A DNA stretch of 64,000 nt, from positions 186,001 to 250,000 of the forward strand of contig WTGH01000018.1 in assembly GCA_011523655.1 (NCBI GenBank), written 5' to 3'. Source of the stretch: Rhodospirillaceae bacterium. Lineage in GTDB: Bacteria > Pseudomonadota > Alphaproteobacteria > Bin65. The position numbers and the translations under genes were made by a program. A model generated the notes under the pieces. That model had not been told where the DNA came from. It saw only the letters and a list, made by a program, of their open reading frames with translations, and made no database searches. Each line of letters begins with the position of its first letter. Position 1 is the stretch's first letter. Of the stretch, positions 1,085-6,964 are shown piece after piece.

Positions 1085-3550
1085 TCAGTCGTCGCCGAAG
1101 AAGCTGCCGGCTTTCGGCGGCGCTTTCTGAGTCGGGGCGGCGCGCGAGGCCGGCGAAACGCGATCCTTCTTCGCGCTGCGGCGCACGGCCGGGCGCGGCG
1201 CCGCCGGCAGGACCGGGCCGTCGAAGAAAGCGCCCGGGCGCACCGCGTCTTCGACATCCTTCTCCCGGCGGGCGGGCTGTGCGGCCTTCCGGGCGGCCTG
1301 TTTCGGGGCAGCCTGTCTGGAACCGGACCGTTTGGAAGCGGCCGGTTTGGCGGCAGACGGTTTGGATTCGCCCCGTTTCGATTTGGCCTGTTCGGATTTG
1401 GCCTGTTCGGGTTTGGCCTGCTCGGATTTGGCGGGGACCGCTGCCGGTTTCTTCGATCCGTTGCCGGCCTTGTCGCGCGCCGCGCCCGCCGCCTTCTTTT
1501 TCTTCTTCTTTGCCGCCTTCGCGGTTCTCCGGGCCGGTTTTTCGGCGGCGGCAGCCGGCTTTTCCCTCTCCGCGCGGCCGGGGCCGAGATCGACGGGCGC
1601 CGGGCGGATGATCCAGGCGTCCGGATCGGCCGGTTCCGCCGGCGGCGCGGCGGCCGGGGCCGGCACGTCGCGCGGCGTGGTCTCATCGGCGCTGCCGAGC
1701 GACGCGAGGTCGATCGGCGCAGGGCGGGAAATCCAGGCGTCCGGGTCGGCCGCGGTTTCTGTCTGCTGCCGCGCTTCCCGGGCGCGGCCCGGCCCGAGGT
1801 CGACCGGCGGCGGCCGGACGATCCAGGCGTCGGGATCGTGAACCGGTGCCGCGGACCCGCCCGCGCCGGCGGCGCCGGAAGCGCCCGCCGCCGCAAGGTC
1901 GATCGGCGCGGGCCGGGCGATCCAGGCGTCCGGATCGGCCGCAGCCGCTGCATGGCGGGCGGCATCGGAGCGGACCGGCGTCAGGTCGACCGGCGCGGGC
2001 CGGGCGATCCAGGATTCCGGGTCGTCGGTCGCCGCTGTTGCTTGGTGGGCGGCGCCGGCCCGGACCGGCGTCAGGTCGATCGGCTGCGGCCGGGCGAGAG
2101 AGGATTCGAAGGCTTCGGTCTCGGCGCGCGACGCGCCGGCCTGCGGCGCTTCCCGTTTGGGCGCGGCGGCCCGGCGAACGATATCCGGTTGCACCATTTC
2201 CACGGCCTCCAGAGACATGGGTTTGTAGGTCGCCCGCTCATAGGCCCAGGTGGGCGGATAGGGCTTGGTGGCGTCGAATCCGACCTTCGGGCCGAGATAG
2301 TCCGGGAAAGACGGGTTCAGCCCGTGGCCGAAGGATTCGTCGATCGTGACGATGCCCTTGGTCGGGTCCAGCCGCGTCGCCATCGCCCATTCGACGTCCT
2401 GGGCGCTGCGCAGGTCGACATCGTCGTCGACGATCGTCACCATCTTGAGCGGCGGGAAGGCGGAGAAGGCGGCGAGGATCGCCTGTTTCGACCAGCCCTG
2501 GCGCTTCTGGGCGAGCTGGACGACGCAGTGATAGAAGCCGCCGCCGCCGTGGCTCATATAGACGTCGGTGACGCCGGGCACCTGCTTTTGCAGCAGTTGC
2601 AGGATGTTGGCCTCGCCGAGCAGGCCGACGGAGTTCCACACCTCGACGCCCGACAGGATGGTCTGGAACACCGGGCTGGACCGACGGTGGATCTTGCGGA
2701 CATGGACGACGGGCCGCGGCGCCACGGTGGCGTAGTAGCCGGTGACCTCGGCAAACGGCCCCTCGTCGGCGACCTCGCCGGGCGCCATCTCGCACTCCAG
2801 CGCCCACATGGCATGGGCGACCATGTCGTCGTGGCCGTTCGAGGCCTTGACCAGTTCAAGCGGCGCGCCGTGGAAGGCGCTGGCGATGCCGAGCTCGTCG
2901 GAATCCGCCGGGGCGGCCTCGGCCGGCGCGGCGGCGGCGAAGTGCAGGCCGGGTCCGACGCCGCAGTTGAGCGTGAAGGTCAGCGTCTCGCCGCGCGCCT
3001 CCGCCTTCTCCAGGTAGAGCTCCAGATGCCGGCCGGCGTCGATATTGACGTGCATCCGGTCCTTGGCGACGACCTGGAAGCGCTGGATCGAGGCGTTGCG
3101 CACGCCGGTTTCGGGATCCTTCGCGATCACCACGGCGGCGTCGAAATAGGGGCCGCCGTCCTTCTCGGCATGGATCGGGATCGGCATCTTCGCGAGATCG
3201 ACATCCGGCTCCGTCACGTCGAGCACCGGGCCGGACGGCACGACCACCGGATCGACCGGCGCCTGCTGCCACTGCCGGATGCAGTCGGAGACATATTGCG
3301 GCAGCGTCCGTTCCTCGCGCCGCAGCAGGTCGGCCAGCAGTTCGCGCGACCAGTAGAGGCCGGTCAGCACCGGCCATTCGTGGCCGGCGACATTCTCGAA
3401 CAGAAGGGCGCGAGGCTGGCTCTCGAGCTCGGCGGCGAGGCCGGCCAGATCGTGCTTGAGATCGACGCTGCTGCCGATGCGGGCGAGCCGCCCGCTGCGC
3501 TCCAGATCCTCGACGATCAGCGCGAGATCGTGAATGTGGGTTGCCGCCAT
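1085..3550 (-). CDS. ubiD: UbiD-family prenyl-FMN-dependent decarboxylase with a long repeat-containing C-terminal tail
   Basis: An 821-residue protein where about 450-500 is usual. Residues 1 to about 455 are a complete UbiD domain. The expected catalytic triad is present: Arg157 (in NASIQRFQVV) and Glu263/Glu268 in DEGPFAEVTGYY, the E-x4-E spacing of Fdc1/UbiD enzymes. Known family chemistry is reversible (de)carboxylation of aromatic or unsaturated acids using prenylated FMN made by UbiX, whose gene lies directly upstream on the same strand. From about residue 480 the protein becomes a Pro/Ala-rich disordered tail with about six copies of DPDAWIxRPxPxDL. A Lys/Ala-rich basic stretch with EQAK repeats follows, and the protein ends GSFFGDD. 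The longest frame starts at 3667, but the first homologous Met (MAATHIHDL) is at 3550 behind GGCGGGG, so that start was chosen. Whether it acts in ubiquinone synthesis or catabolism is not clear. Confidence 0.9.
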   Translation of the reverse strand: MAATHIHDLALIVEDLERSGRLARIGSSVDLKHDLAGLAAELESQPRALLFENVAGHEWPVLTGLYWSRELLADLLRREERTLPQYVSDCIRQWQQAPVDPVVVPSGPVLDVTEPDVDLAKMPIPIHAEKDGGPYFDAAVVIAKDPETGVRNASIQRFQVVAKDRMHVNIDAGRHLELYLEKAEARGETLTFTLNCGVGPGLHFAAAAPAEAAPADSDELGIASAFHGAPLELVKASNGHDDMVAHAMWALECEMAPGEVADEGPFAEVTGYYATVAPRPVVHVRKIHRRSSPVFQTILSGVEVWNSVGLLGEANILQLLQKQVPGVTDVYMSHGGGGFYHCVVQLAQKRQGWSKQAILAAFSAFPPLKMVTIVDDDVDLRSAQDVEWAMATRLDPTKGIVTIDESFGHGLNPSFPDYLGPKVGFDATKPYPPTWAYERATYKPMSLEAVEMVQPDIVRRAAAPKREAPQAGASRAETEAFESSLARPQPIDLTPVRAGAAHQATAATDDPESWIARPAPVDLTPVRSDAARHAAAAADPDAWIARPAPIDLAAAGASGAAGAGGSAAPVHDPDAWIVRPPPVDLGPGRAREARQQTETAADPDAWISRPAPIDLASLGSADETTPRDVPAPAAAPPAEPADPDAWIIRPAPVDLGPGRAEREKPAAAAEKPARRTAKAAKKKKKKAAGAARDKAGNGSKKPAAVPAKSEQAKPEQAKSEQAKSKRGESKPSAAKPAASKRSGSRQAAPKQAARKAAQPARREKDVEDAVRPGAFFDGPVLPAAPRPAVRRSAKKDRVSPASRAAPTQKAPPKAGSFFGDD
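1588..2111 (-). repeat. Coding repeat array in the UbiD tail: six WIxRPxPxDL units
   Basis: On the plus strand the units begin near 1592, 1705, 1797, 1896, 1980 and 2070, with spacing 84-113 bp. Each encodes a variant of DP(D/E)(A/S)WIxRP(A/P)P(V/I)DL; the last (nearest the enzyme domain) is degenerate (ARPQPIDL). The Trp, Arg-Pro and Asp-Leu positions are conserved while the linkers vary in length and sequence, which suggests selection on the peptide motif rather than recent DNA slippage. Confidence 0.9.
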
Positions 3551-3706
3551 CGCCCCGCCATTTCGCACGCCACCGGCTTTATTTCCGACCGGTTTCCGGG
3601 TGGCTCTGTCTGGCGCCTTGCGGCGCATCCCTCGATCAGCGGTCCCTCTTCCGACGAATTGCCGCACCGGTCAAGGCGGGAAACGGCGCAGCCGCCGGAC
3701 CCCCCG

Positions 3707-4363
3707 TCAGGCGTCGCCGGATTTCCGGGCCGGTTTGCCGACGCCGCCGGCCGCCGCCGGTTCGCCCCAGCGCTTGACCAAGCCGAGATCGAATCCGAAC
3801 AGGTCGAGCGCCCGGCCGACCGTCTGGTTGACGATATCGTCGACGGTCTCCGGCCGCTGGTAGAAGGCCGGCACCGGCGGCGCGACGATCGCGCCCATCT
3901 CCGAGAGGCGCGTCATGGTGCGCAGATGGCCGGTGTGAAGCGGCGTCTCGCGCACCAGGAGGACGAGGCGGCGGCGTTCCTTGAGCACGACATCGGCGGC
4001 CCGGGTCATCAGGCTGGCCGTCGTCCCGGCCGCGATCTCCGACATGGTGCGCACCGAGCAGGGCGCGATGATCATGCCCTCGGTGCGGAACGAGCCCGAC
4101 GAGATCGCCGCGCCGATATCGTGGACCGGGTGGACGACGTCGGCGAGCGCGCGGATATCCGCCACCTTGGCCGTCATCTCGTAGGCCAGCGTGACCTCGG
4201 CGGACTTCGTCATCACGAGATGGGTTTCCACCCCGGTGCCGCGCAGCGCCTCCAGTACCCGCACGCCGTAGACGATGCCCGACGCGCCGCTGAGGCCGAC
4301 GATCAGCCGCTTGCCGGCGTTCTGCCCCGGGCCTTTTCCCGTGCCGCTCATGGCCGCGACCAT
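3707..4363 (-). CDS. ubiX: Flavin prenyltransferase UbiX
   Basis: A 218-residue UbiX (Pad1-like) protein. It opens with the FMN-binding strand-loop RLIVGLSGASG, and carries SGSFRTEGMIIAPCSVRT, the ETPLHTGHLRTM motif and the PPVPAFYQRP loop of the family. UbiX joins a dimethylallyl group to reduced FMN to make prenyl-FMN, the cofactor of UbiD. The ubiD gene lies 156 bp downstream on the same strand, so the two are probably one unit. Several in-frame starts exist (4420, 4363, 4351). I prefer 4363, which has GGGGCG about 6 bp upstream; 4351 is nearly as likely. The gene is divergent from the thiolase, leaving about 134 bp for both promoters. Confidence 0.92.
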   Translation of the reverse strand: MVAAMSGTGKGPGQNAGKRLIVGLSGASGIVYGVRVLEALRGTGVETHLVMTKSAEVTLAYEMTAKVADIRALADVVHPVHDIGAAISSGSFRTEGMIIAPCSVRTMSEIAAGTTASLMTRAADVVLKERRRLVLLVRETPLHTGHLRTMTRLSEMGAIVAPPVPAFYQRPETVDDIVNQTVGRALDLFGFDLGLVKRWGEPAAAGGVGKPARKSGDA

Positions 4364-4497
4364 AGCGACGCCCCGCACCGGCGGCAACGCGCGTTGAGGC
4401 TGCGCCTGCCGCCGCCCCATGCCGCGCTTCCCCTCCGAAGTCCCGGCCGCTATATCTTTCGGCAGCTTTCGCCGAATCTCTTTCCGGACCCCGCCCC

Positions 4498-5709
4498 ATG
4501 ACCGACGCCTATATCTTCGACGCCGTCCGAACGCCGCGGGGCCGCGGCAAGGCCGACGGCGCCCTGCACGAGATCACGCCGGTCGATCTGGCCGCGCAGA
4601 CCCTCGGCGCCCTGCGCGACCGCAGCGGTCTCGACACGTCGAAAATCGACGACATCGTCCTCGGCTGCGTCATGCCGGTCGGCGAACAGGGCGCCGACAT
4701 CGCCCGGCTCGCCGCGCTCAAGGCGGGCTACGACGAAAAGGCGACCGGCATCCAGATCAACCGCTTCTGCTCCTCCGGGCTCGACGCCTGCAACCTGGCG
4801 GCGGCGCAGGTCATGTCCGGCCAGGCCGATCTCACGGTCGGCGGCGGCGTCGAGAGCATGAGCCGGGTGCCCATGGGCTCGGACGGCGGCGCCTACGCCA
4901 TGGATCCGGCGGTCGCCATGCCGATCTATTTCGTGCCCCAGGGCATCGGCGCCGACCTGATCGCCACCCGCGAGGGCTTCTCGCGCGACGACGTCGATTC
5001 CTACGCGGTCGAATCCCAGAGGCGCGCCGCGGCGGCGTGGGAGAACGGCCGATTCGAGAAGACGGTTGTGCCGGTGAAGGACGTCAACGACCGGGTCGTG
5101 CTGGCGAAGGACGAGCATATGCGCCCGGAGACCGACATGCAGTCGCTCGGCGCGCTCAACGCCTCCTTCGAGGGTATCGGCGCCCAGTTCGGCTTCGATG
5201 CCGTCGCTATCCAGCGCTATCCCGACGTCGAGCGGATCGTCCACGTCCACACGCCGGGCAACTCGTCGGGCATCGTCGACGGCGCCGCCGCCATGCTGAT
5301 CGGCACGAAGGAGACGGGCGAGGAACTCGGCCTCAAGCCGCGCGCGCGCATCCGCGCCTTCGCCTCCAACGGCTCGGAGCCGACCATCATGCTGACCGGC
5401 CCGGTCGACGTGACACGCAAGGCGCTGAAACGGGCCGGCATGGAGACCGGCGACATCGACCTGTACGAGCTCAACGAGGCCTTCGCCTCGGTCGTGCTCT
5501 ACTACATGAAGCAGCTCGGTATCGACCACGACCGGATCAACGTCAACGGCGGCGCGATCGCCATGGGCCATCCGCTCGGCGCGACCGGCGCGATGATCCT
5601 CGGCACCCTGCTCGACGAGATGGAGCGCCGCGGCGCCGAGACCGGCCTCGCCACGCTGTGCGTCGGCGCCGGCATGGGCGCGGCGACGATTGTCGAGCGG
5701 GTGCACTGA
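4498..5709 (+). CDS. Acetyl-CoA C-acyltransferase (thiolase)
   Basis: A 403-residue thiolase of normal length with the full catalytic set: nucleophilic Cys91 in [11 protein letters not shown], His358 in [16 protein letters not shown], and Cys388 in [11 protein letters not shown]. It cleaves 3-ketoacyl-CoA with CoA (beta-oxidation) or condenses acetyl-CoA units. The sequence resembles degradative FadA/PaaJ-like enzymes, but chain-length preference cannot be read from it. The ATG at 4498 follows the divergent ubiX promoter region. A long inverted-repeat element lies downstream, then an SCP2 protein that could bind acyl or sterol substrates. Confidence 0.92.
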
Positions 5710-6296: not shown

Positions 6297-6548
6297 ATGC
6301 AGACCATCAGCGCCACTGAAGCGAAAGCGCGTCTGGCGGAATTGCTCCGCACAGTCGAGCGCGGCGAATCCGTGGCGATAACCCGTCACGGCGAAGCCAT
6401 TGCCCATGTCGTCCCCGTACAGGCGGCCGACCGCGCCGAACGGGAGCAGGCGATGGCTGACTTTCTGCGGATTCGGGAAAAATGGAAGCCTGCCGGCATG
6501 TCGGTCGAGGAAATACTCCGGGCGCGCCATGAGGGCCATCGCCTTTGA
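6297..6548 (+). CDS. Type II antitoxin, Phd/YefM family
   Basis: An 83-residue protein opening MQTISATEAKARLAELLRTV, with GESVAITRHGEAIAHVVPV, the signature of the Phd/YefM N-terminal DNA-binding domain. The C-terminal third (ADFLRIREKWKPAGMSVEEI) would wrap the toxin. It neutralises the PIN toxin encoded by the overlapping next gene and probably represses its own promoter through the palindrome just upstream. A GGTGA element precedes the ATG. Confidence 0.85.
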   Translation: MQTISATEAKARLAELLRTVERGESVAITRHGEAIAHVVPVQAADRAEREQAMADFLRIREKWKPAGMSVEEILRARHEGHRL

Positions 6549-6964
6549 ATCTCTTTGTCCTCGATGCTTCGATTGCGCTTGCATGGCTGCTGAACGAGGA
6601 AGCCGGATCGCAGGCGGACCGGGCTTGGCTGCGCCTGAAAAACGGCGACGCGCTGGTTCCCCGGCTTTGGCATTTTGAGGTCCGCAACGGTTTGCTCGTT
6701 GCAATGCGCCGGGGGCGGATTGCGCGCGATGCATCGGCGCAGCTGCTTCGCGCCCTTGAACGCTTCCCGATCCGGACCGACGTCGAACCCGATCTGGAAA
6801 CGGCCTTCGATCTGGCCGACAGGCACAGACTTACCATCGACGATGCTGCGTATCTGGAAGCGGCCTTGCGGAATTCTGCGCCGCTGGCCACGCTGGACAA
6901 GGCTCTTGCACAAGCCGCGGCCGAGTGCGGCCTGTCCCTGGTCGGCGGCCGCATCGGGACGTAG
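6545..6964 (+). CDS. PIN-domain toxin (VapC family)
   Basis: A 139-residue PIN-domain ribonuclease. The acidic metal-binding residues are in place: Asp7 (FVLDAS), Glu45 (HFEVRN), Asp99/Asp100 (LTIDDAAYLEAA) and Asp118 (LATLDKAL). It starts at a TTG overlapping the antitoxin stop by 4 bp, which implies translational coupling. Family toxins cut tRNA or rRNA when unopposed. It faces a second TA module across 18 bp. Confidence 0.87.
   Translation: MNLFVLDASIALAWLLNEEAGSQADRAWLRLKNGDALVPRLWHFEVRNGLLVAMRRGRIARDASAQLLRALERFPIRTDVEPDLETAFDLADRHRLTIDDAAYLEAALRNSAPLATLDKALAQAAAECGLSLVGGRIGT

Follow-up and report, generated by a model that had tools for sequence, protein, structure and literature searches.

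One gene in the 64,000-nucleotide stretch of Rhodospirillaceae DNA analysed here (the window) raises the question of what a UbiD decarboxylase does with a long, repetitive C-terminal tail. Its single open reading frame encodes an intact UbiD decarboxylase (residues 1–455) followed by a 366-residue tail. We tentatively propose, at somewhat less than an even chance, that the tail is a predicted disordered, multivalent array that would dock one or more partner proteins. The start methionine is shared by 22 of 23 aligned rows (P0013 is stored with a longer start), and the listed GTG at 3667 is therefore unneeded.

The catalytic part exceeds the Pfam cut-offs for UbiD_N (47.8 bits), UbiD (160.2 bits) and UbiD_C (101.5 bits) over residues 13–427, and scores 272 bits against TIGR00148 (cut-off 244.85). 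By sequence the protein is a member of the UbiD decarboxylase family, and prFMN-dependent decarboxylation is predicted. It falls outside the canonical ubiquinone UbiD group (PRK10922, NF008175), with 142 bits against a cut-off of 788. A search of the organism's own genome (4.27 Mb, 96% complete) with the window protein identified three further UbiD-like genes (454, 487 and 542 aa), none of them long-tailed. An untailed paralogue in this genome scores 706.7 bits to the canonical enzyme, which is below the same cut-off but far closer to it.

The nearest solved chain is AnInD, the indole-3-carboxylate decarboxylase of Arthrobacter nicotianae (PDB 7p9q; 550 bits over residues 45–493 of the 860-aa open reading frame). 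The E(D)-R-E ionic triad that PMC8988006 describes for the prFMN site is present. R157 and E263 are invariant and E268 is at least 90% conserved among 62 aligned sequences, with the triad positions matched to the window protein by our own reading. In our reading of the AnInD alignment, R155, E266, L409 and D169 correspond to R157, E268, L411 and D171, and D171 is invariant in the 23 rows and at least 90% conserved in the 62 sequences. PMC8988006 also reports a docking model in which D169 contacts the indole nitrogen, and severe impairment of D169 variants. Because the catalytic residues correspond to those of AnInD, including D169, the window enzyme is predicted to be an indole-3-carboxylate decarboxylase.

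Relatives of the enzyme are encoded at 63 loci, an uneven sample found by two peptide patterns only. A TrpB-like family, recognised by reading, is common to nine of these loci (L021, L023, L034, L045, L052, L059, L064, L065 and L069), and the copy in L065 (8283–9755), the sole one checked for family, matches Pfam PALP. None of the five loci that share the window's WIxRP array (L007–L011, all labelled Rhodospirillaceae or Alphaproteobacteria, with L008 and L011 truncated where their contigs stop) is among the nine. The presence of a TrpB-like gene near AnInD-like UbiDs suggests that indole-3-carboxylate is converted to tryptophan by way of indole.

The tail consists of a short linker, six motif copies of the DPDAWIxRPxPxDL type, a basic Lys/Ala block, GAFFDG (residues 773–778) and a terminal GSFFGDD (residues 815–821). 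A first-pass annotation had described a long tail with six WI copies on an intact UbiD. The long tail and the intact enzyme are borne out, but W-I is present in only five copies and the sixth is degenerate: copy 1 (AFESSLARPQPIDL) lacks DPDAW. Copy 2 reads DPESWI, and each of the five W-I copies holds at least three prolines. The Lys/Ala block with EQAK repeats and the GSFFGDD end are present as annotated; GAFFDG was absent from that list. The net charge is −10 over residues 456–660 and +27 over residues 661–821.

Table 1. Positions in the window of the tailed gene, the elements of its tail, and neighbouring genes.
Feature	Position	Strand	Remarks
Tailed UbiD-family decarboxylase gene, 821 aa	1085..3550	-	ATG 3550, stop 1087-1085
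Catalytic UbiD part, residues 1-455	2186..3550	-	Pfam domains, AnInD 7p9q match, AlphaFold2
Motif 1, degenerate, AFESSLARPQPIDL, residues 480-493	2072..2113	-	predicted short helix 475-485 overlaps start
Motif 2, DPESWIARPAPVDL, residues 510-523	1982..2023	-	
Motif 3, DPDAWIARPAPIDL, residues 539-552	1895..1936	-	
Motif 4, DPDAWIVRPPPVDL, residues 572-585	1796..1837	-	
Motif 5, DPDAWISRPAPIDL, residues 602-615	1706..1747	-	
Motif 6, DPDAWIIRPAPVDL, residues 642-655	1586..1627	-	slightly raised pLDDT over 631-650 (51-57)
Basic Lys/Ala block with EQAK repeats, residues ~661-769	1244..1570	-	
First FF motif, VRPGAFFDGPVL, residues 770-781	1208..1243	-	
C-terminal FF motif, PKAGSFFGDD, residues 812-821	1088..1117	-	
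UbiX-type flavin prenyltransferase	3707..4420	-	156 bp upstream of tailed gene
Thiolase	4498..5709	+	also near tailed UbiD in L007-L011
Single-domain SCP2 protein, 99 aa	5864..6163	+	

We reject a read-through product, a second gene or an internal ATG start: the gene is in one frame, its last methionine is residue 452, and the tail recurs in 35 search hits. The separate downstream start for the tail that the first-pass annotation had considered thus finds no support as far as ATG starts are concerned. Searches of the tail for a known domain found nothing above the cut-off in Pfam and a best PDB match of E 0.22, which is not a helper subunit.

We searched for the tail region among the 7,987 candidates sharing the most words with it, at lengths of 0.55–1.75 times the query, and found 35 proteins, every one with at least one UbiD domain. 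A free-standing tail query that admitted shorter proteins (7,998 candidates scored) identified three proteins, two of them partial members of the same 35-protein set. The third, P0037 (577 aa, no Pfam domain), is encoded on a 3,547-base contig by a tail-only frame that starts at the beginning of the tail, and may be a fragment, a frameshift or a true split gene. In the organism's own genome the motif DNA pattern, which is exact, demands a Trp codon and would miss degenerate copies, matches five times, always in the window tail; a reversed control matches nowhere. At the level of this exact pattern, we reject for this genome a docking tag shared by many different enzymes. A restriction of the motif to UbiD is supported in the genome itself and by 35 of the 36 distinct tail-search hits, the exception being the possible fragment P0037.

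Motif copies occur in each of the 36 proteins P0001–P0036. Among 209 loosely matched copies, W is found in 163, the following I in 164 and D at +8 in 196, counts that lean upward, the pattern having fixed P, allowed only R or Q before it and limited other positions. In a reading of the 23-row alignment, the arrays of P0010 and P0032 differ in copy number through clean deletions from one motif copy to another, of the kind that recombination between the repeats would produce.

Such a tail could be without function, a low-complexity stretch added neutrally to a gene rich in GC. Tail length and the basic block vary widely, many relatives in the subfamily have no tail, and by reading the tails of two close relatives, P0038 and P0039, appear to be out of frame, through either assembly indels or tail decay. 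These two cases are of the kind that the first-pass annotation had counted against function, but elsewhere in the relatives the motif is conserved. It is retained in P0036, P0043, P0044 and P0046, which share 74–77% identity with the window protein over the catalytic part. Moreover, selection differs within the tail. Compared with the full-length tails of L007, L009 and L010, dN/dS is 0.167, 0.138 and 0.220 for the motifs and 0.516, 0.734 and 0.676 for the linkers, figures that come from three relatives, small samples (84 motif codons, 17 FF-motif codons) and a linker alignment of uncertain quality. The corresponding values are 0.102, 0.108 and 0.094 for the catalytic part, 0.106, 0 and 0 for the FF motifs, and 0.41–0.56 for the basic region. 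The motifs and FF motifs contain no gapped codons, the linkers 1–6 and the basic region 26–30. The contrast between motif and linker (0.14–0.22 vs 0.52–0.73), a check that the first-pass annotation had put forward, favours functional motifs, and we regard a neutral tail as highly improbable.

Relatives carry other arrays at the same place, which lay beyond the view of the first-pass annotation. A search with the catalytic part scored about 8,000 candidates and identified 610 relatives, the best 120 of which were examined. Among the 87 new relatives within these best 120 of 610 (P0038–P0124), 30 have at least 60 residues past position 455 and 57 have fewer; many members of the subfamily stop near residue 455–490. 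Sorted by eye and by our own regular expressions, six distinct repeat arrays occupy this position: WIxRP, RWWKREL, VPKAD, DAFWxAV, LVDYILEKTG and LKERI. The DWDENRWWKRELEEMKRE array is found in 15 rows including L057, VPKAD in P0047, DAFWxAV in P0074, P0099 and P0112, LVDYILEKTG in L045, and LKERI in L019 and L040. Five rows have an RPVDVAR-type tail of 97–183 residues with no clear repeats.

On the best tree of 154 rows (a quick tree with many weak forks, which includes L008 and L011 and leaves out L055, L056, L060, L062 and L066), the presence of a repeat array requires at least five gains or losses and the array type eight changes. A single clade of WIRP, RWW and VPKAD arrays has a p-AU of 0.231, again with the weak forks of this quick tree. 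Of the 35 rows that carry WIRP, RWW or VPKAD arrays, 32 terminate in the FF motif, vs 1 of 119 others (P0057); the misses are P0043 and the contig-cut L008 and L011. Several RWW rows end in GGFFRGGAM. Within the best 120 of 610, many short-tailed relatives end in GG-x-A-M or similar, with GGSAM in 13 of the 57. From these termini we infer that the C-terminal motif is the older element and that the arrays arose in the linker preceding it.

Other features vary among the relatives. In L021, L027, L064 and L065 (Granulosicoccaceae/Chromatiales) the last 200 or so residues of the UbiD form what looks like a globular domain, for which Pfam gave nothing further in L021 and L064. A gene named from its sequence as flavin-reductase-like lies upstream of UbiD in the same four loci (5333–5881 in L065) and is possibly comparable to the prFMN maturase PhdC. 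Seven loci (L017, L018, L020, L024, L026, L028 and L039) encode untailed betaproteobacterial UbiDs with common downstream genes, which in L020 and L024 read as parts of a TRAP transporter.

The structure of the chain was predicted with AlphaFold2 from a single chain and 62 aligned sequences. Blocks of the core score mostly 75–98, with dips to 65–67 at residues 301–310 and 331–340 and to 45–52 at residues 401–430. Values in the tail are approximately 33–45, with the exception of residues 461–490 (60–69, including the short helix) and the segment overlapping motif 6, and the tail is predicted to be disordered. Conserved motifs in variable, disordered linkers, as the first-pass annotation had described them, are in agreement with dN/dS, gap placement and the predicted model.

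A predicted disordered chain with repeated tryptophans could also self-associate, with the Trp motifs serving as stickers for one another or for the cores of other hexamers, giving condensates or lattices without a second protein. By the pattern used, the motif is unique to the window protein in its genome; the acidic repeat region (net −10) is followed by a basic region (net +27); and several of the other arrays pair aromatic with acidic residues, as stickers could, although the LKERI array does not. However, within the WIRP clade the motif is conserved residue by residue, beyond what loose stickers would need, and the single-chain model placed no motif on the enzyme's own core, the motifs being at low confidence. 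We consider self-association unlikely as the main role of the tail.

The gene directly upstream encodes the only UbiX found in this 96% complete genome, as the other of two Flavoprotein-family matches is CoaBC. A ubiX gene lies within approximately 1 kb of the UbiD gene in L007–L012 and L057. Overall, ubiX is nearby in 9 of 16 tailed loci, a set drawn up by hand from tails at least about 83 residues long, whether repetitive or not, vs 6 of 42 other loci (Fisher p 0.002). A test of tail against ubiX adjacency by independent pairs had only three pairs on well-supported branches and gave no signal. Adjacency as proof of UbiX docking is ruled out, because the link across these 58 loci fails the test for shared ancestry. 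An alignment of UbiX from tailed genomes reveals no clear special docking surface by eye, and UbiX looks ordinary.

These observations bear on the possibility that specific binding of UbiX by the tail gives the window UbiD priority over the three other UbiD-like enzymes in receiving prFMNH2. One UbiX for four UbiD-like genes, the closeness of ubiX in the loci above, and the helper proteins that some UbiDs need for cofactor loading (LpdD, PMC10865409) would all be consistent with such a hand-over. However, no ubiX was found in the fetched flanks, some of them short, of L021, L027, L064, L065, L045, L014 and L016, which have other long tails. There is also no independent association of tail and ubiX, and UbiX stays recognisable while the motif turns over. 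A dedicated hand-over is in our judgement distinctly improbable.

The neighbourhood also includes the SCP2 gene. SCP2 homologues were found in the fetched flanks of only L007–L011 and L057 out of 63 loci, all with a tailed UbiD, and this co-occurrence is suggestive, although bound to related enzymes. Separately, overlapping genes for a Phd/YefM antitoxin and a PIN-domain protein (window 6297–6964, + strand) form a VapBC-like pair.

A lipid-carrier-domain neighbour common to these loci would fit a tail that tethers the enzyme to membrane or nucleic acid, with the basic block and the Trp and FF motifs holding it on an anionic surface. The C-terminal region is strongly positive in net charge (+27), and by reading the RWW-type arrays in relatives resemble amphipathic helices. 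However, the five W-I copies, with their several prolines each, are not expected to form helices, the basic region has the most gaps, and the repeat region carries a net negative charge. A tether appears about as improbable as a dedicated hand-over.

The docking array that we tentatively favour would combine the six motif copies on drifting linkers with the basic block and the two FF motifs. A folded receptor is favoured by the motif-specific conservation, avidity by the number of repeats, and a dedicated partner or the enzyme itself by the uniqueness of the motif in the genome. The proline-rich RPxPxDL core, anchored by its tryptophan, would occupy a groove of the folded partner. AnInD is a hexamer in which the C-terminal loop meets the adjacent prFMN domain (PMC8988006). 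A hexamer, predicted here from homology to AnInD, would display some 30–36 motifs on its six chains and hold many partner copies at once. The array would be rooted where the AnInD loop touches the neighbour's prFMN-binding domain, near the cofactor domain. With many sites of low affinity, it would either concentrate the partner locally or link hexamers to each other.

The candidate partners are, in order, the adjacent UbiX, the enzyme itself and the adjacent SCP2 protein. UbiX is placed first because it is encoded within about 1 kb in L007–L012 and L057 and because UbiD activation can require helpers (PMC10865409 and PMC13040415); it would be the sole supplier found in this genome of an oxygen-sensitive cofactor for four UbiD-like enzymes. 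A single old, fixed groove on UbiX is disfavoured, because UbiX can still be recognised where the motif has been replaced. A broader reading, which we hold as doubtful, is that of a self-scaffolding metabolic enzyme: six arrays at the same point of the same enzyme would gather the partner of each lineage, and the docking code would have been rewritten repeatedly, leaving a set of naturally evolved assembly codes on a single unchanging catalyst.

We found no description of UbiD repeat tails in the literature, judged by title and the start of the abstract among the matches listed, with subscription journals thinly covered. A subfamily with repeatedly gained motif arrays offers ready-made baits for partners, and bears on prFMN delivery and the organisation of UbiD enzymes. 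If the proposal is true, one could trace on a nearly constant enzyme how one multivalent motif code gives way to the next.

Three known systems provide a comparison. AnInD is the best solved match, and equivalents of its D169, R155, E266 and L409 are found in the window protein. However, its solved chain of 461 residues, matched to residue 452, has no long tail. In VdcCD and LpdCD the UbiD also depends on a further protein element in addition to UbiX (PMC8379154 and PMC10865409), but the helpers VdcD and LpdD are separate small folded proteins, whereas the element in the window is a covalent, predicted disordered repeat tail in which neither Pfam nor PDB sequence searches found a match to these helpers. 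The alpha-carboxysome protein CsoS2 has repeated, conserved short motifs in a disordered chain, whose multivalent binding drives assembly (PMC11365436). The window tail, with its repeated conserved motifs on a predicted disordered chain, may be likened to CsoS2 in its way of working only: CsoS2 is a separate scaffold with other motifs, whereas the window array is part of the enzyme itself.
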